Assembly: GCF_020921035.1 (NCBI RefSeq)
Contig: NC_063158.1
Location: 7,422,001 to 7,486,000, forward strand
Reading direction: 5' to 3'
From: Rhodamnia argentea
Taxonomy: Eukaryota > Streptophyta > Magnoliopsida > Myrtales > Myrtaceae
DNA: 64,000 nt
Every line of letters starts with the position of its first letter. Within the stretch, counting starts at the first letter, position 1. The position numbers were made by a program, and so were the translations under genes. Shown here one piece after another: positions 6,401-53,003 of this stretch. The notes beneath the pieces were generated by a model. The model saw only the letters and a program-made list of their open reading frames with translations, was not told where the DNA came from and searched no databases.

Positions 6401-8203
6401 TTACTAATGTTAAAAAAAAATTAGAATACCAACTTCTCCAATCTTTGACAAAAATAAAAAAAAAAATACTTCCTTTACCATTGATCAACGTATATTTACC
6501 TTTCTTATTAATAGCTTAGATTTCCCGACTAACCTTTATTTGTACGGCTTACCAATCTTTCTTCAATTAAATTGCTAACTAAGTTTGGGATTATCAACTC
6601 TCATTGAGTTGTTTATTCCGTTGCTTACTAATTATTTTTAAAAATTACTAACCTCAATTAAAATGATTGCCTACTTTCCTTACAATTACCGACCTCAATT
6701 GAATTGTTGGTAAAATATAACAACTACTAAACGTTAGTAAGAAAATCAATTAAGAGTTGATACTTCAATATTAGCTAATAATTTAATCCGATAAAAGTTG
6801 GTACATTACTGTAATTTACATTTGGTAACTTCATATAAGAGCTAGTAAATTTGAAGAGCTAGTACTTTATGCCATTAAAGATTGGTAAGTTGGTAAAAAA
6901 AAAATTGCTAGTTCGCAAATTATGAAGAAAAAAAAAAGATCATTTCATAAAAATGCTGTTAAGTTGCCAACAAGGTACTCGGAAATTCAGCAGTTAATCC
7001 TTTAACGAACAAGTTTTGTACATTTACCAGCTTTTATTGAAATTCATTGGCACGAAAAAATTCGTACGTACATAGAACTTCGTACCTTATCTTTATATGG
7101 TTCAGGGACCCGATAGTTATGGCTGTGTATTTGTTCTCCTCCCCAAGTACTTCTACCTGCGGCACGTTGCAAGGTAGGCATGACTTAGCTAAAAAGAAGG
7201 ACAACTCGAGAACCAATAGTCCTAACATTGGGAAGAGCCTTTTTCATAGTACTTAAAATTTTTGTCAAGCGTATATAACGAGAAAATATCTTAAATTATT
7301 TCAAAATATTAGTGGAAATATGGCAAAAGTAGCTCACTAAAAGCTAGAATTTTTTTTTTTTTATGTAACCGTCTATTTTTAACGAGTGCCTTGAAAATAT
7401 TGGTTACCAAAATTTATTTTCGAAATATATTGATTTAACATTTAAAGTGAGGTATCTTCTTGTACCGTTTGTAAACAATTGAAACACGACAAACAACGCG
7501 GTGCAAGATGTAGACATGATTTATTGTCGGATGTGTATCTTGTGTATTATCTGCATTGTCTTTTTTTTTGCAGATAAGGAAATTCTGATAGCCGAATTAC
7601 TTGGGAAAAACAATGAAATCAAAAGGAAAGAATGGGAGCAATGCAAAGACGGTCGTGATACGTACCTGGAAATTCAGCTAGCCTTGGCTCGGTATACTTG
7701 CCATTGCAGACAACCACGGCCTCAAACACCTCCGCGCGCACTTCGCCGTCCCGCGTCTGCCACTCCACGACCCACTCGTCATTCCTCTCCTCGACGACTC
7801 GCTCGACCCGAACCACTTCGTGCTCGAATCGGACCAGCTCGACCACCCCGGAATCCTCCGCGAAACCCTGCAGGAACCGGAGCACCTCCTCGTGACCCGG
7901 AAACGGCCTCGGATCAACCCCGACACTCAGTTTCGCTTCGAACGGGTAGTCCGAGAAGCCCATGATTGGCCTCGGGAGGTTCACCCGGAGCGACTTGTAC
8001 ATGCTGCTGTGGACGACCTCACGAGCCGGATCGAGGCCCAACGGATCGGACTCAACCCGGGGGTCATAGACCCACGTGCCCCCAACTTCGCTGCCCTTTT
8101 CGAAGACCACCACCTGATGTCCTTCTCGACGGAGCTCTCGGGCTGCGACCAGACCCGACATGCCGGCTCCGATGACCGCTGCTTTTACACTCCGTTTTGG
8201 CAT
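3473..8203 (-). CDS. flavin-containing monooxygenase, FMO GS-OX-like (7 exons)
   Basis: Predicted FAD/NADPH-dependent S- or N-oxygenase of the plant FMO GS-OX-like group. Exons: 7666-8203, 7086-7156, 4825-4962, 4627-4709, 4393-4528, 4028-4201, 3473-3694; all junctions are GT/AG and in phase, giving 453 aa (usual for the family). The FAD motif GAGMSG is at residues 12-17. The FMO signature xGxxxHxxxY is at 184-194, with its first Phe replaced by Trp. The NADPH motif GNGPSA is at 209-214, and a CSGYKYHFPFL block spans the exon 4/5 join. The start at 8203 was chosen because a TATA box sits at 8241-8248, making the upstream in-frame ATG at 8221 unlikely to be transcribed. Two oddities are a 2.1-kb repeat-filled second intron and a C-terminal run of glutamates encoded by a GAG microsatellite. 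In glucosinolate-free plants the substrate of such enzymes is unknown, so I name no substrate. Confidence 0.92.
3498..3540. repeat. CTC/GAG microsatellite in the last FMO exon
   Basis: A (CTC)n run followed by CTT units. On the minus strand it encodes a run of 11 glutamates near the FMO C-terminus. Its length is likely to vary between individuals. Confidence 0.9.
4963..7085 (-). repeat. repeat-filled intron 2 of the FMO gene
   Basis: This 2.1-kb intron is about 70% AT and is dominated by dispersed, degenerate units around TTACCAACTTTT. From about 5230 to 6700 the units read ACCAACT on the plus strand. From about 6720 to 6910 they read mostly AGTTGGT, as in the short stretch at 5155-5215. No coding potential is seen. 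It may be an old tandem or foldback-type insertion. Confidence 0.6.
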
Positions 8204-8240
8204 GGCTTTCTTTTTGTACATAACAATTTCTTGAGTGGTC

Positions 8241-8248
8241 CTTATATA
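8241..8248 (-). promoter_or_regulatory. TATA box of the FMO gene
   Basis: TATATAAG read on the minus strand, 38 bases upstream of the chosen ATG. At usual plant spacing the start of transcription falls near 8212, leaving a very short leader. Confidence 0.65.
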
Positions 8249-8259
8249 CGACAACGATG

Positions 8260-9211
8260 GATCTACTTGGGTGGGGTCGTGGACTAAGATTGAGCTTATT
8301 TTTCCCTTTCTTTTTTTTTCTTTGTACTTTTATAGGTATTGCTAGCTCCAAACCGAGTGGAAAAATCAAAGTTATAGTTTGAATAATCCTGCTTTCAATC
8401 TCTAATTACGTGCTTAGACCAAATACTATTTAGTCAATGCGGTGATGGCTATACCAAGAACAACATATACATGGACAAATCAAGTTTCGATTCTCTCAAG
8501 ACTCCGATAAAAATTGAATAAATTAATAAGAAATTATGGTTATGATTACTCATCGCCTAAGGATTCATCGGTTACCTAATAGTTCAGCCGTCGATTTGCT
8601 TTCGAGATGACAAATCCAAGCCATCAAGAGTGGTAAAAAAGGTCGCTCCGTCTTTCGCAAGATCATATGTTCAAACACGTTTTTTTCAAGGAATCTCTGA
8701 ACAATTTGGTTTCTAAGCATTTGGTGAGAGATTGCCCGACTTTTGTCGCATACCGACGGAGAGATCGCGTGATTATGACTTCAGACCAAACATTTGATAA
8801 TGGGTGTGACGTCTTTTGGTTAATGCCTGAAGGGAATAATTACACTGGTTGCCCTTTCTCACGCTTCGTACTTATCAAATAAAGTTAAAAGACTTGAGAT
8901 GCGTCTGAATTTGTGACTGTTATCCTAATTCTCACTGTTTAGGCCCACGTGATTGGGCAACTGTTTAGGCATGTGATGGGCAATTTCACTTTCCTACAAT
9001 TTTATAAAGTCGCTTCCCAAGCCGGGAACGACACAATTAGCAAATTTTCCTTTGTTTGTTCTGTTGGCTCGATGGAAACAACCACCAGATCTATTTCGGA
9101 AGGAAACTTCATGGTGCAACGTACTCAACTTAACACATTATGTTAGTTTGTTTAATTTAAGTGTATAGTCAACTGTCTACTTAGGGAAGATCTTGGCATG
9201 CTAAAAAAAGA
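8260..9211. other. intergenic region upstream of the FMO gene
   Basis: No gene or clear repeat is recognised. The FMO promoter must lie in its left part. The short open frames here have no family resemblance that I can see. Confidence 0.5.
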
Positions 9212-15210: not shown

Positions 15211-15612
15211 TCAAGCACACAGAAATCCTTGGGGAACCTTTTTCTCACAACCATTCACAAGCAAGCTGAGAGCGACCGGAACTTTGATCTTCACGAGGCC
15301 CAGCACGTTAGCCTTGATTGCAGTGCACAAGCATAATGCAGCTTCGAGATCAGCAAGCCCCGCCACGAGGGTGCAGCATTCCTTGCTGGGTTTGGCGCCG
15401 ATGTTCTCGGTGACCAGTCCGAGCCAGCTTCCGCAGACCCCGAACTTCAGCGTGTCTTTGGGGCACTTCCCGGGCCCTTTCGGGGCTGGCGGCAGAGAAG
15501 GCGACGGGACTTTTGGCGGGCACGGGAGGTTGTCGGACGAGACGCAAGGGAAGGAGATGATGCTGAGCAGAACCACAATGGTTACCGGAGTCCTAAGACA
15601 CTTGGGAGCCAT
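15211..15612 (-). CDS. hybrid proline-rich protein, 8-cysteine (DC2.15/14 kDa type)
   Basis: Predicted secreted cell-wall or apoplastic protein of the HyPRP group (LTP-like 8-cysteine fold), 133 aa, intronless. A signal peptide covers about residues 1-26 (TIVVLLSIISFPCVSS). A short proline-rich linker follows (PCPPKVPSPSLPPAPKGPGKCP). The C-terminal 8-cysteine domain shows CPKDTLKFGVC, ECC, CLC and the last two single cysteines, ending LCA. The start is the ATG at 15612: it begins a good signal peptide, and a TATA box is at 15695-15702. The frame extends upstream without a better ATG. It is a paralogue of the gene at 16487-16888, of identical length. Family members are linked to cell extension and stress responses, but no specific role can be read here. 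Confidence 0.93.
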   Translation of the reverse strand: MAPKCLRTPVTIVVLLSIISFPCVSSDNLPCPPKVPSPSLPPAPKGPGKCPKDTLKFGVCGSWLGLVTENIGAKPSKECCTLVAGLADLEAALCLCTAIKANVLGLVKIKVPVALSLLVNGCEKKVPQGFLCA

Positions 15613-15694
15613 CTTCAAGAAATGAAACAAGGTGAATGCTATGGGAAAAGTGTGAATGTAGCGAGTGTGGGAGAGGTTCAATCAATCATGTTGG

Positions 15695-16486: not shown

Positions 16487-16888
16487 CTAAGCACATGGGA
16501 AGCCTTTTGGGACACCCTTCCCACAGTAGTTCAGGAGCAAGCTCAGAGAAATGGGAACGTTAAGGTTGATCCCCAAGATGTTGGCATTGATGGCAGTGCA
16601 GAGGCAGACCACAGCCTCGAGGTCTGCGAGCCCTTCGATGAGACTGCAGCAAGGAGTCTTTGGTGGGGTCCCCACAACAAGGTACAACAAGTCGTTCAGC
16701 AAGTTGGCGCACACCCCAAGCTTGAGGGTGTCCTTCGGGCAAGCGGCAGCAGCCAGGGATGGTGGTGATGGGTGTTTGGGTGTCTTTGGAGGCAGCGGCA
16801 GGCAGGGAACATGAGTCGAGCTCACCATAGTGAAGAAGAGGAGGTTGACGAGGAGGATAGCGGCAGTCGTGACAGTTTGAGAAGCCAT
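16487..16888 (-). CDS. hybrid proline-rich protein, 8-cysteine (paralogue)
   Basis: 133 aa, intronless, with the same layout as the gene at 15211. It has a signal peptide ([16 protein letters not shown]), a short Pro-rich segment ([16 protein letters not shown]), then the 8-cysteine domain ([18 protein letters not shown], final PCA). The ATG at 16888 (MASQ) gives a canonical signal peptide. An in-frame upstream ATG at 16972 would add 28 residues that do not look like the family, so I did not use it. The two genes are about 875 bp apart in the same orientation, which suggests a tandem duplication. The proline-rich linkers have diverged more than the cysteine domains. Confidence 0.92.
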
Positions 16889-17377
16889 TTCAGTGGAAAT
16901 CAGACATCCAAGGACTGCAATTAAGGAAGGCCCTAGGATTGCTTGTAACTCGTCATCTTGGCTCAGCTTCATAAAGAAGAAAGAAAATTCCTATATTCTA
17001 GCGCTAACAGGTTTATCAACTGGCATCTAAGCAAAGTCGGTGTCAACTTGATGCAACAGATTAACGAGAAAATTTCAATGCCCGGGTACCCTTTCATTTT
17101 TCAAAGCTACATGTGTGAGGTCCAATCATTCCCAACAATGAATAATAAAAATAACAGTTCACAAGAAAGCAGGAAAGCCGGCTCCAAGAGCAGGGACATA
17201 ACTAGGGAAAAAACGAGAGACACAGAACTTATCTTGATAAAAACCGTCAAATCATGTTCTCTGTACACAGCAGGAAATTTCAGGAACAAGAACCCACGGT
17301 GTACAGAGGAAGAGAATAACTAACATTAGATGAAGAGGGACGAGCAATTGATCATCAGGTTGGCCATGCAGTAACCT
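16889..17377. other. HyPRP promoter and SKA1 3' flank
   Basis: No gene is seen. It must contain the upstream region of the gene at 16487 and the 3' untranslated region of SKA1. Confidence 0.45.
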
Positions 17378-38904: not shown

Positions 38905-41900
38905 TTACGTCCTCTTCATAAGATACCCCAAGATAAGGCCAAGCAAGCCGATGAGAACGACGTATATAAACGAAATACCGCCGTGGCCTCTCTTGGTTTG
39001 TCGCTTCAAAAGCTCCTGTTGAAATTTATTGAGACATCAATGCAAGACCAATAAAAGGCAAGGTATGCTGCTCGCAGAAGTAGACATTTCCATCGCCCAT
39101 CACATGGTGAAGTGCATCTATAAACATGCTATGTATCGCGCAATCTCTTTTTCTTTCCTATTTCCCTTTAACCACATATTTTGCCATATTCAGTCAAACA
39201 TTAGGTCATAACCATGCCTGCATTTGCCAGACCTAACTTTATCTTCTAACAATTCTGGAAGGTTAGGAGACAACGAAACAGCCAACAGAACTAGTCCAAC
39301 AGAATACAAAAAGGAAAATCTAGGACTAACCATGAATATCATGATCCATCAACAGCAACTCAATTAACCGACGGCTGATTTATTGACACAATCGACAATA
39401 TATTTCTTTGGGGTCCATCTCAGAAGATCTGCATTGCTCTCCCCTCCAAAATGGCCAGAATAATCCCTCCTTGGACAATTATTAATTCAAATACTCATGA
39501 TTCCTCATCAAATTGCCAACCCCTTTTGACCTGTCCTATGAATGCCGGTCACCTATATATGAAGTACTTTTGACTGATTTAGAATATTAAACATGGATCT
39601 TCCCATGAAATGACTGGCTTCCAGCTTGATACAATTCCAGCATTGTACATTAAAATAGTGGTTTGCAGCCACTATACCATCTTTTTTTTTTTAATCAAAG
39701 CCACTATCTTTAAGTGGTTGACATTTGCATCAGCAGAATTAGTTCCCATCGTTTTTCCTAGAATAGATTTTACTTGCTAATTTAAAGGTTAAAAGCACCA
39801 CATTTCACCATTAAATCACGACTGGCACCTAAGCACCACATTTCACCATAAATTACCTAGGTAGTAAAAAGCCCAGATAGCCTTGTCCAGGTTCATCTTC
39901 AGACCATCACTCAATTATGCCACTCTTGGTTTAAACATTATTGCTTAGTAGACGGTATCATTTCTAGTGAAAATTCCATCGAAATGAGAAGGGAAGTAAA
40001 CTAAACCTTACAGCAAGGGCAAGGCCTTCTTCAGAACAACAAATGAAACAAAAGTCATTCACATTACCACTTACCAATTCCTGTTGAAGCTTGTTATTTA
40101 GCTGAATAGCTGAGTTTTTCTCCTCAGTCAATTTCAAAATTAGAGCCTTTGCCTGGAACAAGAGGAAATATGTCAAACTAAGAGACAAGCAATTCATATA
40201 AATAGTAATTCCTTAGTTAAATAACAAGGGTCAAAGTTATGGGCTTTGATTTCTTGGTCAGTGCAACACAGGCTTTATATTCAAATTGAGACTCGCATCA
40301 CAAAAGAAATCACACTAATTGGCCATCAAATGAAACAACATTAGAATTTTCAAAGATCTATTAATCCCGCAATAATTAAACTGTTTAAGTCATTTTCTGT
40401 CACAAGAAAAAGGTTTCCATTGAGGAGGCTCCATACAAAGCCATAGCAATATTCAGGAGTCCTTTGCTCCAATACACTCCCAGCACAATATTTAGAACAT
40501 CTGCTTTCCGTACACTATGGTACAATGTAAGATCCATACCTTCTGTCTCCTTTTAGGGGTTGAAAACATATTAATTAACATATTATCAAACAAAGTGAAA
40601 CCTATGTCAATCTCTCCACATCCTGGTATAGTATTTGTAGATGTAATGACCTCAAAATAAAACACCCATAATAAATTACAGCCATCATAGTTTTTGTCAA
40701 CTAGAGCTTTCATCGAATGAAGTGGACACAACTCATAGGTCTCCGACATCTACATGGAAGGTGCAAAGCTCAGTGGATGGAAAATGAATAGGAGCACAAT
40801 TGCACCAAGAGAGCATGGTAAAGAGAGAAATGCTGAAGACACTTTACAAAAAGCTTGTTTACTAAGCGATTCAGCCAGATTCGATTGGATGAAATTCGCC
40901 TGGGACCACCATCTTTTAAATATCTTATGTGAACCTGCCAAATCACTTAGCATGCAAGTTTTAATATAAGCTCTTCGCACATCTAGTAAAAAATTTATCA
41001 GGAAGATGTATCAATACACATGTTTCTCATTCCAGTTATATCCTATACATAAATTGGCCAATCAAAGTTTTGTCGTTAGTCTCAAGACGCACATACATCA
41101 GAAGCGTGCTTTTCAAATGGCCAAGTGTTAAATATGACGTAGATGATGCTGTTGCGGCAAAATCTCAAACTCCAAATGAACAGGCTGATTTCTGCAGAAC
41201 TACGAGGTTGATAGGGAGACTAAGGCAATTGACTAGATGGCCTTCAATCATGGATAGCAACTATTGCTAGCAACGTAAGAGTGACTGAATAAGGTACACT
41301 AAAGACTTCATTGGGGCCAGGCCAAAGAAGTAGTCTTCGAAGTAATGTACATACGACATGTCTAATCTAACAAATGCAATAAACTCCTAATTGCATTCAC
41401 AAGATCCCCAAGGACGAATCAAGTCATAATACAATTGAAAGAACATTCCAGATTCCCGCAAGTTGCTATCACCACTGACGCCACATACTACCAACAAGGC
41501 CAGATGTAGTCCATCCTGGTCCTATTATTTTTCTCACTCAGGTGCAGCTTTTCACCTCATCAAGTTCAACAGTCTAAAGCAAGCCTCTTAATCCATGCTA
41601 CACATGCTATCTGTCATGACTGAGCAAAGACCAATAAGTACTGGCTAATAGTAGCCAAATGTTGCCTTTGCCTTTATTTACTATATTATGCTTTAACATT
41701 TTTCTTCTTCTTGCTTCTGTACACTCGTGATGCACTGGGGAGTTTGCTTCGTAACATTGTATTATTTATCAATTATTTATCAAATAGATTATATTTCAAA
41801 CAGAGTTTACTCATAGCTTGCGATGATCCAAGAGTACCCCAGGTTGGAAGTCCACCAACTGCTCACTATAAAAAGAAAGCATCCATCCTTCACCAACTAA

Positions 41901-44900
41901 AAGGATGAGCGAATTAAGAAAAAAAACAATGAAGAGATTACAAATTTACATAAGCAAGTTCAAAAAGCTCAACTATATACAGGAGTATTACTAACGTAAA
42001 CCATATGCCTAATATACTAGTAAGTACATTGGAGGTGAGAATTGACCATGAAAAGTGACGCTGATAAAAACTTTTCATAGTCTAAAGAACATAAACAGGA
42101 GAACTAGCATTTTCAAAAAAGAGCCAATGGAATTTGGAAGAAACCGAGGTCGTTTTGAAATAACATAAGAACACATGTTGAGAGTTTTGAATCCTCTGGA
42201 ACATATCTTGGGGCTTGGGGTATTGAGAGAAAACAGGCTATGGGATACATATAGAGACAAGGAAGAGCTCAGTGGAAAGCATTCAAAGTGAATGCAGATA
42301 ATTCTTGGAGATTTGAAATGACTGATGAAAGATGGGAATTGTCGGCTACACCACCCATTATGTGCAACTGGTCACTTGTTGAATCATCAATATGTCTATG
42401 ACAATCTGACTTTGGAGTTTGATGTAGTTCCAGGATGATATAAGAGTATAATGAGATTGGCTCTAACTCCAAGTATGCAAGACAAAATCATGGATGAGTT
42501 GTCAATATATAAGAGAGTCATTAGCCTATTTGGCTGGGACCTTGCTGTAAAAGAATAACTAGGTAATCCGCACTTGGCTATAGAACTTATATTTGGTCAG
42601 TGCTTCCTCCAATTTTTTTCCTAAATAGTTATTAGTAACTCTTTAAATAAATCATCTAGCTAAATGATGGGAAATTTATGCAATGCCAGCTCCAAATGTA
42701 CAAAGGTCACTATTAAATTTGACAAGTAATTCATCCAGATGAGAAAGAACCCAAAGCATTCTTTAGGAAGCAACTAAATATGATTAGACAAAAACATTGC
42801 CAATTAGTTTTATTCGGTAAATCTAATTCAATATTTGATTATCTCAGTCTACATTTGCAGATTCACATAAAAAGGAGTTTAGGACTGGTAAAAAAACGAC
42901 CAAACAATTTCAGATCTAGCTCTTAAGGTATATCTTTTTGATCAGACACTGACTCGATCATCGGAAGAAGAATTAGGCCTCTTTTGCAAGACAATGAGTT
43001 GAGGTGAAGTTGCATGTGGAACTCAAGCTGAAGAACTCATCAAGAGCAAAAGATCTGATCTCAATCTAGATCGAGACAAGAATAAAGGCCTCATCTTCAC
43101 AATCACATTTTACGGAAGAAGTTAATAGTGAGCAAATTAATGAGGAAAATGTGGAAAACTACGTGAGTGGAGGGGAAGAAAGAGATGCAGATTTGGGTGA
43201 TGAGATGAAACCACTGAGAAATTATCTTCTGTCCTTTTGCTTGTTTTTTGGCTAAAGTTAGCATGTTGCAAATTCTATATTCTTCTAAAGTTGTATGGCA
43301 TTATGATTGGGCTATTCTTCATTCTATCCTACAGTTAGAGTGCATGTTTTTCTTGCCCATCATCTATCTATATACTTTGATTTAATACGATCTATTCTTG
43401 CTTGATTAGTGATCCTAAGAAAGTCGATGCCTACTTTACTCAGGCAAGCAATTGTTATGCTTTCGGGATCCGGCGTTTTAGAGTCTTAGCACCTTTTACG
43501 TTTGACTACACTATCCTCAACTCAAGCGACACATCCAATCAAGTTATTTCCTTTATTCATGAATCTAACTCCACAGTCTTTAATCTACTTCCACAGAAGA
43601 CGAGTCATATTAGTATTATCTTAGCATTTCCACATACTCACGTATTAGCTAACTGTAATAGTATAATCCACACACAATCACATATCCTTCCAACCATGTT
43701 TGATAATGAGAAATGCCTTAAAATAGTTCTTCATCATGGAACCGAAATGTCCCTATTATTACTCCATTCCATCCACTACAACAAACCTCTCCCCTTTCTT
43801 AACATTGCAAATTGTAAAATGCATTCATACATATTACTTTTTCTTGATAATACTGCATTGACGAAGGAAACTTCTGCACTCCACCTTCACAATACCTTAT
43901 TGTCCTTTTGGGAGAATAAGAAAGATGTGCTCCTAAATATCCACAATCTACTTATGAGTAATCAAACTTGAAAAGGCCATAATTCAAGATTGCTATACCA
44001 AGTCATATCTGCATAATTATTTCATCATCACCCCAATAATTATTGTTTTAATAGGCTAAAAGTTTGTCCACATCCGTACATATTATACGTCCATGGAGAA
44101 ATAAACTCTCTCTGTCAAAACCAGAGAAACACTTATATTTCCATACAAAAATTCCTTTAAACTAGTTCTTCATTATCCACCTCGTTCAAATGAAAAAGAA
44201 AAACCATAAATAAGAATCTTGAAGAGGAAAAGATCATATTACCTTCCATGAACTCTCAAGCTAAATGATGGATAATGTCAGACATAGGACATTGCCAATA
44301 AGCCAGTGGAATAAGAACCAAAGAAGAATCACAATTGTTGTATTGCCTTTTTCATTCATTAGATCTGGAATCCTTTTTCGCCTTTTGTGTTTGGTTGTCA
44401 ATGAGGACGGTTAGCCAATCCCTAATAGTAAAGGTTACCAACTTAAGGTTGCAGTTTCCGATTTAACTGCAGATGTTCACACACTTATATGCAATTACCG
44501 AATGACAAAATAAAAAGTTTAACTTGTTTTGGCAATTCTTAATGCGTGCATAAAACATAAAGCACCTCGGATGAATTGTCCTGCGGCTCATCAAATGTCT
44601 TTGAAGCCTGAAACAACAATCGACCACTGTATTATAATCTATTGCAGATGAAACAAGCACTCTGATGTCGTGTTATATTTCAGATACCAATAATTCAAGA
44701 ATATATCAAGCACTCACAGCCGTAAATTCAAAGTTATTCAAGTTTCCATTATCTGAAATGGAGGCTCGTGGTGAGGAACCTTCTTCTGATCCTTCTCGAA
44801 CTGGGGATGGAGGCCGAGGGGGAGCCACATAAACGACCCTCAGCTTACACTCTTCGACATTGTGGCCCGATTCTTTATTGAACTGGAATCCAACACCAAT

Positions 44901-46589: not shown

Positions 46590-47008
46590 TGCCAACTTGG
46601 GAGGGCAACCAAATATTCTAAGCAGTTTGCCTAAGATTATAGGACGTAACTTGGTTTTGATCCAATCCACTCCAAATCAACCGACGATTTCGCAATTCTA
46701 GGGGTAACTACTGTGCTATTCCCAGGAAAAACGAAAATACAAGATGAGCCGGACAATATAGGTATTAAGAAAAGGGGTTTCCCGAGGCTCTAAAATCTAG
46801 TTCACCTACCGGTTCTCTAGAGATCGATCCATGGAAAAACGCTTATGGAAGTGGCAAAAACGATAGATACTGCTTTTTGGCATTTTCTTAAAGGGTTCAT
46901 ATAAAACGTAAAAGAATCGTCCTGCGACTCAATAAATGCCCATGAAGTCTAAAACCACAAGTGACCACTGTATTCTAACCTATTGCAGAAGGAACAAGCA
47001 TTATAACA
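46590..47008 (-). pseudogene. VAP27 3' remnant with dead exon 6 (copy 2 flank)
   Basis: The stretch 46907-46948 lines up with exon 6 of the complete gene: acceptor AG kept, then codons reading TSWAFIESQDDSF against [13 protein letters not shown]. The donor GAG|GTGCTT has become ACG|TTTTAT, so it can no longer splice onward. Beyond it (46590-46870) the sequence is similar to 50130-51200, showing that the duplicated block reached past the gene. Confidence 0.7.
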
Positions 47009-48025
47009 TCATGGTTTATTGCGGATGAAGATAGAATTAAGGATATATCGAGCACTCACAGCTGTGAATTCAAGGTTATTCGAGTTTCTAATGGCTGGAA
47101 CGGAGGCTCGTGGTGAAAACCCTTCTCGAACTCGGGATGGAGGCCGAGGGGGAGCCACGTAAACAACCCTCACCTTGCACTCTTTGACATCGCGGCCCGG
47201 TTCTGCATTGAACTGGAATCCGACACCGGCAGACTCGGTTAGGTTAATTTCTGCATTAAGAGAACTCAAGTCAATAATTACCATTTCTCGCGTGATATCC
47301 TTTGCGGTCGCCCCCGGACTTGCAGTTACACTTTGGAAGAGAAGCTTATCCTTGCAGTTCATGTCAGGAGGTGCTTCCGTTTGAGCTTGCATTGTAACTG
47401 CGTGGTAAGCATGGTAGCACTTACAAGGGCATAAAGATTTAGTTTGATTAAAGAATAAGAAGTCGATCGATCATGAACCTGAGAGAACAACTAAGGATTG
47501 TCTCTCATGATGCGATCGCGCGCCTGTACTCGAAAGTTGAGCAAGAGAGAGACCTTTAACATCACAGGTAGACCAAGGCAACACGATTTCAGTGTTAGGC
47601 CTGACGAAGTACTTCTTCGGCTTCGTCGTCATCACCTGCAAACACCATAGACGACGCGTGCAAAAAGCTCTCAAAATTCAGGAAGAAAAAAGAGCACAGC
47701 GAAGATTTGGAAAGGGAAATGATATGCAAGAGATTCTAGGAGCCGTGGAAAATCAAATTTTTACCTTGAAAGCTACATAGTTATCGGTCTCATTCGACAG
47801 CTGGAGAGAGCAAGAGATCAGCTTCCTCAACTCCACTGAGCAAACATTAGCAAAATCAGACATGGGATTCCCATAAAGAAAAAGAAGAACAAAAGTTGAC
47901 TCCGAACGGAGATCGGATGGGCACGAGAAAGAAACGTGGCAGTTCAAAGATTAAAGAACCCGATGAGGCTTACAAGGGAACTGAAGCTCTTGAGGTTCGA
48001 TTCTGAGGAGATCACCGGTGCTCAT
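47009..48025 (-). CDS. VAP27-like, MSP domain only (copy 2)
   Basis: Exons 47974-48025, 47765-47835, 47554-47635, 47282-47397 and 47009-47212 give 174 aa. The MSP domain is complete ([44 protein letters not shown]) with the APPRPPSRVREG linker. The coiled-coil and membrane-anchor exons are absent. The reading frame ends by running 16 codons into intron 5 (VSARYILNSIFIRNKP). The alternative, splicing to the dead exon 6 at 46948, also gives a stop and no anchor. All remaining splice sites and phases match the complete gene. If expressed, it would be a soluble FFAT-binding protein; if not, a young pseudogene. Confidence 0.75.
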
Positions 48026-48185
48026 GGCTGAATCACAGGGAGAGATCAGAGACGAACGCAGAACTTTTCTCTGCAGCAAGTAACAGCGAAAGCTCAGAGA
48101 GAGAGAGACAGGAGTGAGACGGTATCGTTTGTAAGCCTCACCGGATTTTGACTCGACGTAATATATTTACACAAGCATTATAACA

Positions 48186-49119
48186 TCATGGTTTATTGCA
48201 GATGACAATAGAAGCAAGGATATATCGAGCACTCACAGCTGTAAATTCAAGGTTATTCAAGTCTTTACTGTCTGAAATGGAGGCTCCTGGTGAAGATCCT
48301 TCTCGAACTTGGGACGAAGGTCGAGGGGGAGCCACATAAACAACCATCATCTTGCACTCTTCTACCTTTCGGCCCGGTACTTCGTTGAACTGGTATCCGA
48401 CAGCGACAAGTACGGCTAGGTTAATTTCTGCATTAAGAGAACCTAAGTCAATGCTGTTAGCAAAGTCTCTGCGATACCAATTACCATTTCTCGCGTGATA
48501 TCCTTCGCGGCAGACCCCGGACTTGCAGTTACACTTCGGACGAGAAACTTAATCTTGCACTGCATGTCAAGAGGTGCTTCCATTAGAGCGTCCATTGTAA
48601 CTGCATTGCAAGCATGATAAGTCAATCAATCATGAACATCATGGCACGAACGCTCGCATATACGCGAAATGTGAGCGAGAGAGAGAGACCTTTAACATCA
48701 CCGGTAGACCTAGGCAACACGATTCCGGTACAAGGCCTGACCCAATACTTCTCCTGATTCGTCCTCATCACCTGCAAACACCATAGACGACGCGTGCAAA
48801 AAAGCACTCAAAATTCAGGAAGAAAGAAGAGCGCAGCGAAGAATCAGAAAGCGAAATGATGTGCCAGAGATCCTCCGATCTGCGGAAAATTGAAATTTTT
48901 ACCTCGAAAGCTACGTAGTTGTCGGTCTCATTCGACAGCCGGAGAGAGCAAGAGATCAGCTTCCTCAACTCGACTGAGCAAAAAACATTACCAAAATCAG
49001 ACATGGGATTCCGGAAAAGGAACAAAAGTCGTCTCCGAACAGATGAAAGAACCCCGATGAGGCTTACGAGGGAACTGAAGCTCTTGAGGTTCGTTCCTGA
49101 GGAGATCGCCGGTACTCAT
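48186..49119 (-). CDS. VAP27-like, MSP domain only (copy 3)
   Basis: Exons 49068-49119, 48903-48973, 48690-48771, 48485-48600 and 48186-48389 give 174 aa with an intact frame. The product has a full-length MSP domain and linker but no coiled coil or anchor. It ends in the same intron-5 read-through tail as copy 2 (VSARYILASIVICNKP). The MSP core has diverged at the FFAT-binding face: the complete gene's [10 protein letters not shown] reads NQEKYWVRPC. Homology to the other copies stops near 48172, just after the tail, where copy 2's promoter region begins. There is no exon 6. It could be a functional soluble variant or a decaying copy. Confidence 0.72.
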
Positions 49120-51981: not shown

Positions 51982-53003
51982 GGGAAAAATTCAAAAAAGG
52001 GCCTAAAGTCCTCTTGATTTTTCAAATAAGGGCCCAAAGTGAATTATGTTTCAAATAAGGGTCCGAAGTAATATAGTACGTTTCAATTGAGGGCCCGAAG
52101 TGGTTATAATGTTTCAAAAAAGGGTCCGGCTTGAAGGGTATTTTCGTTATTTCACATTTTAATTTTTTTTCTTTTTCTTGATTGTAAAAAAAAAGTATGC
52201 ACAGGCGGGAGGGCTGCCCCTCCCGCCCGTGGCCGCCGGCCCACCGCCGGTGGGGGGTCGGCAGGGCGCGGCGAAGGCCGGCGGGGTCGCCGGCGACCCG
52301 GCGGCCACGCCGTCGAGGCGAGGGCCTCGGCCCTCGCCAAACCGGGAGAGGGCCCGACCCTCTCCCGGTTACCGGGCGACCCCGGCCCGGTCTCGGGCGA
52401 CGGCCGGCGACCCCGATCCGGGCGGGGACCGCCGGCCTCACCCGAGATCCGGGAGAGGGCCCGACCCTCTCCCGAGTTACCGAGCGACCCGGCCCGGTCC
52501 GGGCGACGGTCGGCGACCCCGATCCGGGCGGGGACCGCCGGCCTCACCCAAATCCGGGAGAGGGCCCGACCCTCTCCTGGTTTTGGCGAGGGCCGAGGCC
52601 CTCGCCCCGACCGGCGGGGCCGCCGGGAGTCGCCGCGCTCGCCGACCCCCCACCGGCGGTGGGCCGGCGGCCACGGGCGGGAGGGGCGACCCTCCCGCCC
52701 GTGAAGTAAACTTCTTCCTATCTCTTTCTTTTTTTCTTTTTTTTTGTGGAAACAGATAACAAAAATTATAATAAAAAAGAAAAAATTAAATAAGTAAAAA
52801 GACTAAAATACCCTTGAATCAGACCCTTTTTTGAGATTTTAAGGTCATTTCAAGCCCTTGTTTGAAACAGTATTCACTTGAGGCCCCTATTTGAGAAACT
52901 ATGAGAACTTCGGGCCCTTTTTTGAATCAGTGTTCACTTGGGGCTCTTATTTGAGAAAACATGAGGACTTCGGGCCCTTTTTTGAATTTTTCCCGTTAAT
53001 CAA
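51973..53003. mobile_element. foldback element, family B, perfect 9-bp target duplication
   Basis: The element spans 51982-52994 between two exact copies of GTTAATCAA (51973-51981 and 52995-53003). The ends GGGAAAAATTCAAAAAAGGG are perfect inverted repeats. Each arm is an array of four to five ~30-bp units (TTTCAAATAAGGGCCCGAAGT). The core at 52200-52705 is roughly 80% GC and is itself an inverted repeat. It also holds a direct duplication with a ~106-bp period (52344-52555). No protein is encoded. A 9-bp duplication and inverted ends fit the Mutator superfamily; the arm design fits foldback elements. Confidence 0.9.

Follow-up and report, generated by a model that had tools for sequence, protein, structure and literature searches.

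Two partial tandem copies of a VAP27-type gene with open reading frames and near-neutral coding change

The Arabidopsis protein VAP27-1 is described in PMC7387695 as combining an MSP domain with a coiled coil and a transmembrane (TM) segment. Anchorless VAPs are already known: a clade of Arabidopsis VAP27 proteins without the TM domain is reported at the plasma membrane (Wang et al. 2016, as cited in PMC7387695), and human VAPC is a splice variant of VAPB that has neither coil nor TM segment (PMC3398895, PMC12249741). The latter two papers present VAPC as the first 70 residues of VAPB followed by 29 unrelated ones, an unstructured protein reported to act as an inhibitor. Mouse VAPB K43L/K45L has a 5-fold lower affinity for a phospho-FFAT peptide (PMC9239997), VAPB K43L binds the ORP1 FFAT peptide more weakly (PMC11094025), and Arabidopsis VAP27-1-T59/60A does not form stable contact sites (PMC5100027).

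The DNA analysed here (the window) is a stretch of 64,000 nucleotides, positions 7422001-7486000 of contig C9, from a genome of 346.7 Mb that, judging by its genes, belongs to a plant. Between its positions 49119 and 38905 the minus strand carries three head-to-tail VAP27 copies: the partial copies A (49119-48186) and B (48025-47009, with a degenerate exon 6 beyond, at 46948-46913), and the complete gene C (45750-38905). Blastn aligns A with B in blocks of 81.0, 86.3 and 89.8% identity and B with C at 77.6% (E=0), identities far above chance that rule out a fortuitous resemblance of the three copies. The nearest relative of A and B is the anchored gene C, with DNA blocks of ~80% for A and 78% for B, a closeness that would argue against their membership in the TM-less VAP27 clade. 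Copies scattered elsewhere were rejected as well, since a whole-genome DNA search, in which very common words were skipped, returned outside the array only one short match, to a paralogue on contig C3. The opposite strand carries another, diverged VAP27 gene with its own coil-exon match (C9, 7362500-7369500), ~100 kb away from the array. No earlier report of copies A and B was found in the accessible portions of the literature on the VAP27 gene family and tandem duplication.

The window contains further features. A reverse transcriptase fragment (RVT_2, 97.6 bits), which we take to be Copia-type, is found at 621-1379. The minus strand encodes a partial flavin monooxygenase-like gene at 7619-8329 (PF00743, 72.6 bits, profile positions 3-162 of 532) and two adjacent hydrophobic seed protein or lipid-transfer-like genes (PF14547) at 15211-15681 and 16487-16990. 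A very G+C-rich block interrupts an A+T-rich intergenic region at 52200-52700; by eye, it appears to contain repeated, near-palindromic segments, and each of its strands has several open frames.

Gene C codes for a protein of 238 aa with an MSP domain, a coil and a C-terminal anchor. Its exons 1-5 (45750-45699, 45558-45488, 45350-45269, 45093-44978 and 44882-44718, the fifth being 165 nt long) are followed by exon 6 (42 nt, 44566-44607), the coiled-coil exon 7 (40075-40152) and exon 8, which provides the transmembrane tail anchor and the stop (38905-39015). Intron 6 (44565-40153, ~4.4 kb), the longest of the gene, lies before the coil exon. It contains on the plus strand an open frame of 196 aa (43381-43971), which matches no Pfam family at E 0.001 and is possibly an insertion.

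The preliminary description took A and B to be devoid of coil and TM exons and named such exons spliced in from elsewhere as possible counter-evidence. In tblastn and short blastn searches with the coil and anchor exons of C as queries, C itself gave the only convincing matches in the window, and none was found near either copy. Among the best 39 candidates of a whole-genome protein search, the coil and anchor exons of C occur once each and the C3 paralogue provides one more anchor-exon match. We rejected the idea of further, hidden anchor exons because none appears in the window or among these 39 candidates. As far as the genome shows, A and B have no anchor of their own.

Both copies consist of exons of 52, 71, 82, 116 and 153 nt, free of stops and with matching phases, separated by four introns that are GT-AG in A as well as in B. 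In A, exons 1 to 5 are at 49068-49119 (with the ATG), 48903-48973, 48690-48771, 48485-48600 and 48237-48389; in B they are at 47974-48025 (with the ATG), 47765-47835, 47554-47635, 47282-47397 and 47060-47212, all on the minus strand. This exon structure is common to gene C and to the C3 paralogue. A and B share an in-frame shortening of exon 5 by 12 nt (153 versus 165 nt in C), which is read as a loss in A and B because the C3 paralogue has the corresponding residues. Exons 1-5 contain no stop, frameshift or broken splice site in either copy, the only lost site being the donor of B exon 6. Pfam recognises the MSP domain (PF00635) in all three copies, with 108.3 bits in C, 94.7 in B and 69.2 in A for a cut-off of 25.9. 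The VAP signature is altered in A exon 3: residues 40-57 read FEVMRTNQEKYWVRPCTG, residue 40 being encoded by exon 2. The five exons with intact phases, splice sites and frame that had first been described are thus confirmed, while the length of 174 aa attributed to each product is reached only by reading through the exon-5 donor.

This donor, GTGAGT, is intact after exon 5 in A, B and C, preceded by GCT in A and B. The 174 aa correspond to 158 codons from exons 1-5 and 16 codons from ancestral intron 5 (residues 159-174), which stay open to a TGA located at the same place in both copies (48186-48236 in A, 47009-47059 in B, minus strand). An AATAAA motif, absent at the corresponding place in C, is found just before this TGA in A (48192-48197) and B (47015-47020). 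If transcribed, exons 1-5 would code an MSP-only protein ending in ancestral intron 5, where the AATAAA and the stop are found. That the motif overrides the exon-5 donor, with cleavage directly behind the in-frame TGA giving compact MSP-only mRNAs for stand-alone soluble heads, whose frame is selected while the binding face is diversified, is considered quite improbable.

Transcripts of B might alternatively run through its worn exon 6 (46913-46948, minus strand), which keeps an intact acceptor (TTTTAG) and an open frame and has lost the ancestral donor. The predicted product has 201 aa and a weakly hydrophobic end, with a KD hydrophobicity of 1.37 over 19 residues for the spliced tail, compared to 1.32 for the read-through tail of A and 2.49 for the anchor of C. 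The initial five-exon description, if taken to mean that neither copy has exons after exon 5, was therefore too strong for B, which keeps this degenerate exon in frame.

The breakpoints of the copies differ. In A, homology extends over the first ~66 nt of intron 5 (to 48171) and stops a little short of the block upstream of B. Collinear homology of B to C reaches exon 6 (B 46914 corresponds to C 44573) and breaks off within this exon or immediately after it (blastn). The absence of coil and anchor exons in A and B is due to their 3' ends being cut off there. At the 5' side, B and C share a block upstream of the ATG (alignment score 77.3, shuffle maximum 33.1). The upstream homology of A ends ~19 bp before its ATG in blastn; A against C scores 54.6 in an alignment allowing long gaps (maximum of 300 shuffles 42.1) and 39 with ordinary gap costs (maximum 45). 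For A against B, neither type of gap cost gives a score higher than the shuffles.

The distance between the stop of A and the ATG of B is only ~160 bp, leaving little room for a terminator of A's own. Together with exon-5 donors that are intact and in phase with C exon 6 in A and B, this compactness would suit a single transcription unit in which A and B act as alternative 5' modules spliced to C exon 6, yielding anchored VAPs with variant heads. Such splicing must however skip the intervening acceptors, and A exon 5 joined to B exon 2 hits a stop after two residues. Each copy has also kept its own ATG, and the omega of ~1 reported below speaks against this model; a shared anchor is very improbable.

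Pairwise substitution rates were computed on 158 aligned codons, the 4 codons of C without counterpart being left out. Three methods give dN 0.14-0.15, dS 0.17-0.20 and omega 0.72-0.88 between A and B, a little under 1 and to that extent a point against plain neutrality, and omega to C is 0.55-0.67 for A and 0.51-0.66 for B. A and B differ at 66 of 474 exon positions (0.139), a divergence close to that of the introns with 58 of 375 positions (0.155), the intron count varying with the aligner (58/375 or 49/375); their coding differences are distributed evenly, 21:21:24, among the three codon positions. In a four-taxon branch codon model omega is 1.04 on the A and B branches, with a 95% profile interval of ~0.59-1.93, and 0.11 elsewhere. 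Fixing the former at 1 costs 0.01 lnL, and a single ratio for all branches is 19.8 lnL worse. A dN/dS near 1, the value that the preliminary description associated with pseudogenes, is hence what was found.

The MSP codons taken separately (the first 125) give omega 0.90 for the branches of A and B, compared with 0.11 on the rest. When the distant paralogue is dropped and only A, B and C are kept, the values become 0.98 and 0.50, so that the four-taxon value overstates how much A and B contrast with the stem and C. A free-ratio model puts the C branch at the bound (omega 20, length 0.001), the stem at 0.28 and the paralogue at 0.04; nothing is claimed for C from this fit because the paralogue, its sole outgroup, is saturated. 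Parsimony assigns to A 29 codons with a changed residue and 10 silent site changes, and to B 15 and 6, respectively. C-to-T changes are found at 4 of 65 CpG positions in each copy. Strong methylation decay was rejected, as there is no C-to-T excess such as long silencing would leave. Following the A-B split, the coding sequence has drifted at a roughly neutral rate.

The quality of the amino acid changes was assessed with a family profile built from seven VAP proteins of the genome, five of which are exon fragments and from which A and B were excluded, and two human ones. The scores are 207.9 for C, 189.9 for the inferred ancestor of A and B, 176.8 for B and 140.9 for A. Neutral simulation with equal numbers of changes gives 145.5 (sd 7.8) for A, with 71.5% of 1000 simulations scoring at least as high as the actual copy, and 167.3 (sd 5.8) for B, whose score is reached by 4.6% of 1000. 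Judged by mean BLOSUM62, neither copy has milder changes than those simulated, 69.3% (A) and 87.3% (B) of the simulations being at least as mild. These profile and BLOSUM62 comparisons reveal no protein-level constraint in A and, at best, a weak sign of it in B.

The basic FFAT-binding face is touched by these changes. Residues 41 and 43 of the copies, which a protein alignment maps to VAPB K43 and K45, are both lysine in C, glutamate and methionine in A, and lysine and methionine in B, and both copies retain a lysine at the position of VAPB K87. By this mapping copy A has lost two of the three lysines of this face and copy B one. Further changes are T44R, P47Q, K48E, C51W and N55C in A, and N46K, C51F, G57E and R62W in B. 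T44R alters the KTT motif, whose threonines are presumably T59/60 of VAP27-1. The decoy design put forward in the preliminary description, in which soluble MSP protein from A or B binds FFAT motifs and competes with anchored VAP27, could draw on the Pfam recognition of both MSP domains, on the retained K87 equivalent and on the existence of anchorless plant VAPs (PMC7387695). It is not supported by the present analysis: omega is ~1 on the A and B branches, the changes of A look random, and lysines of the face are lost along with the other exchanges. The chance that A or B works as a decoy is regarded as slender.

Indels behave differently from substitutions. Between A and B there are 11 in 375 aligned intron nucleotides and none in 474 exon nucleotides (Fisher p=1.4e-4); counting those of at least 3 nt gives 6 versus 0 (p=0.008) and of at least 6 nt 5 versus 0 (p=0.017), a deficit to be read with the caveat that the introns contain repeats that favour indels. 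Under neutral substitution both copies would be stop-free with a chance of 0.14, and the 18 of 18 counted splice-site bases per copy and both ATGs would be intact with a chance of ~0.048. A naive product including a conservative indel term (0.0049) amounts to ~3e-5 if evolution has been strictly neutral from the A-B split onwards, although the intact features were chosen for being intact. The earlier argument that open frames speak against simple decay is weak where it concerns stops alone; the result that opposes plain decay is the exon indel deficit. The deficit, the stop-free frames and the intact splice sites and starts suggest that the frames of A and B were kept for some of their history. 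Gene conversion from C is another process that may have renewed their exons.

The same indel pattern (p=1.4e-4, and 0.008 for at least 3 nt) fits expressed soluble MSP proteins that are loosely constrained or fast-evolving, with selection acting on frame and splice sites and residues mostly free or adaptive. Such proteins would agree with the intact starts and splice sites of both copies, with the B profile score, which is slightly better than neutral, and with the upstream block common to B and C. Omega stands at 1, however, with values below ~0.59 excluded at 95%, and the replacements look random in A and, by BLOSUM62, also in B. We consider this explanation rather unlikely. A translated but fast-changing protein would account for the rate and indel results, as brief or loose constraint followed by neutrality also does.

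A and B are probably partial tandem duplicates that evolve near neutrality and whose frame was perhaps maintained for some of their past. A normal anchored VAP27-type gene, C, would have been duplicated in tandem over its 5' part, with B breaking off inside exon 6 or shortly after it and A inside intron 5, and selection on the frame possibly helped to keep it open for some time. The structure of the copies, their breakpoints and their rates are observed, whereas we infer the order of duplication events, and likewise an absence of function. Most likely the coding life of A and B is over or nearly so, and we prefer to read them as gene fragments that are dying or have already lost their function and in which the frame is open by chance. 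Their phase, frame and splice sites have survived, yet their amino acids change about as fast as their introns. If translated, they would offer a natural test of a VAP head without anchor, with the anchored parent alongside as control; on present evidence they mainly illustrate that an open frame, taken by itself, can be very misleading.

A and B share the MSP domain with anchored plant VAP27 proteins and differ from them by lacking coil and anchor and by several changed signature residues. With the TM-less Arabidopsis clade they have in common a plant MSP domain without TM anchor, but they are tandem offshoots of an anchored gene and closest to C. Human VAPC is likewise a VAP head without anchor; VAPC arises by splicing, in contrast to A and B, which are gene copies in their own right and carry a whole MSP domain. 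Partial tandem-duplicate pseudogenes are characterised by truncated 3' ends and a neutral substitution pattern. A and B exhibit both traits, and they depart from this class in having acquired no stop or frameshift yet and in their deficit of exon indels.
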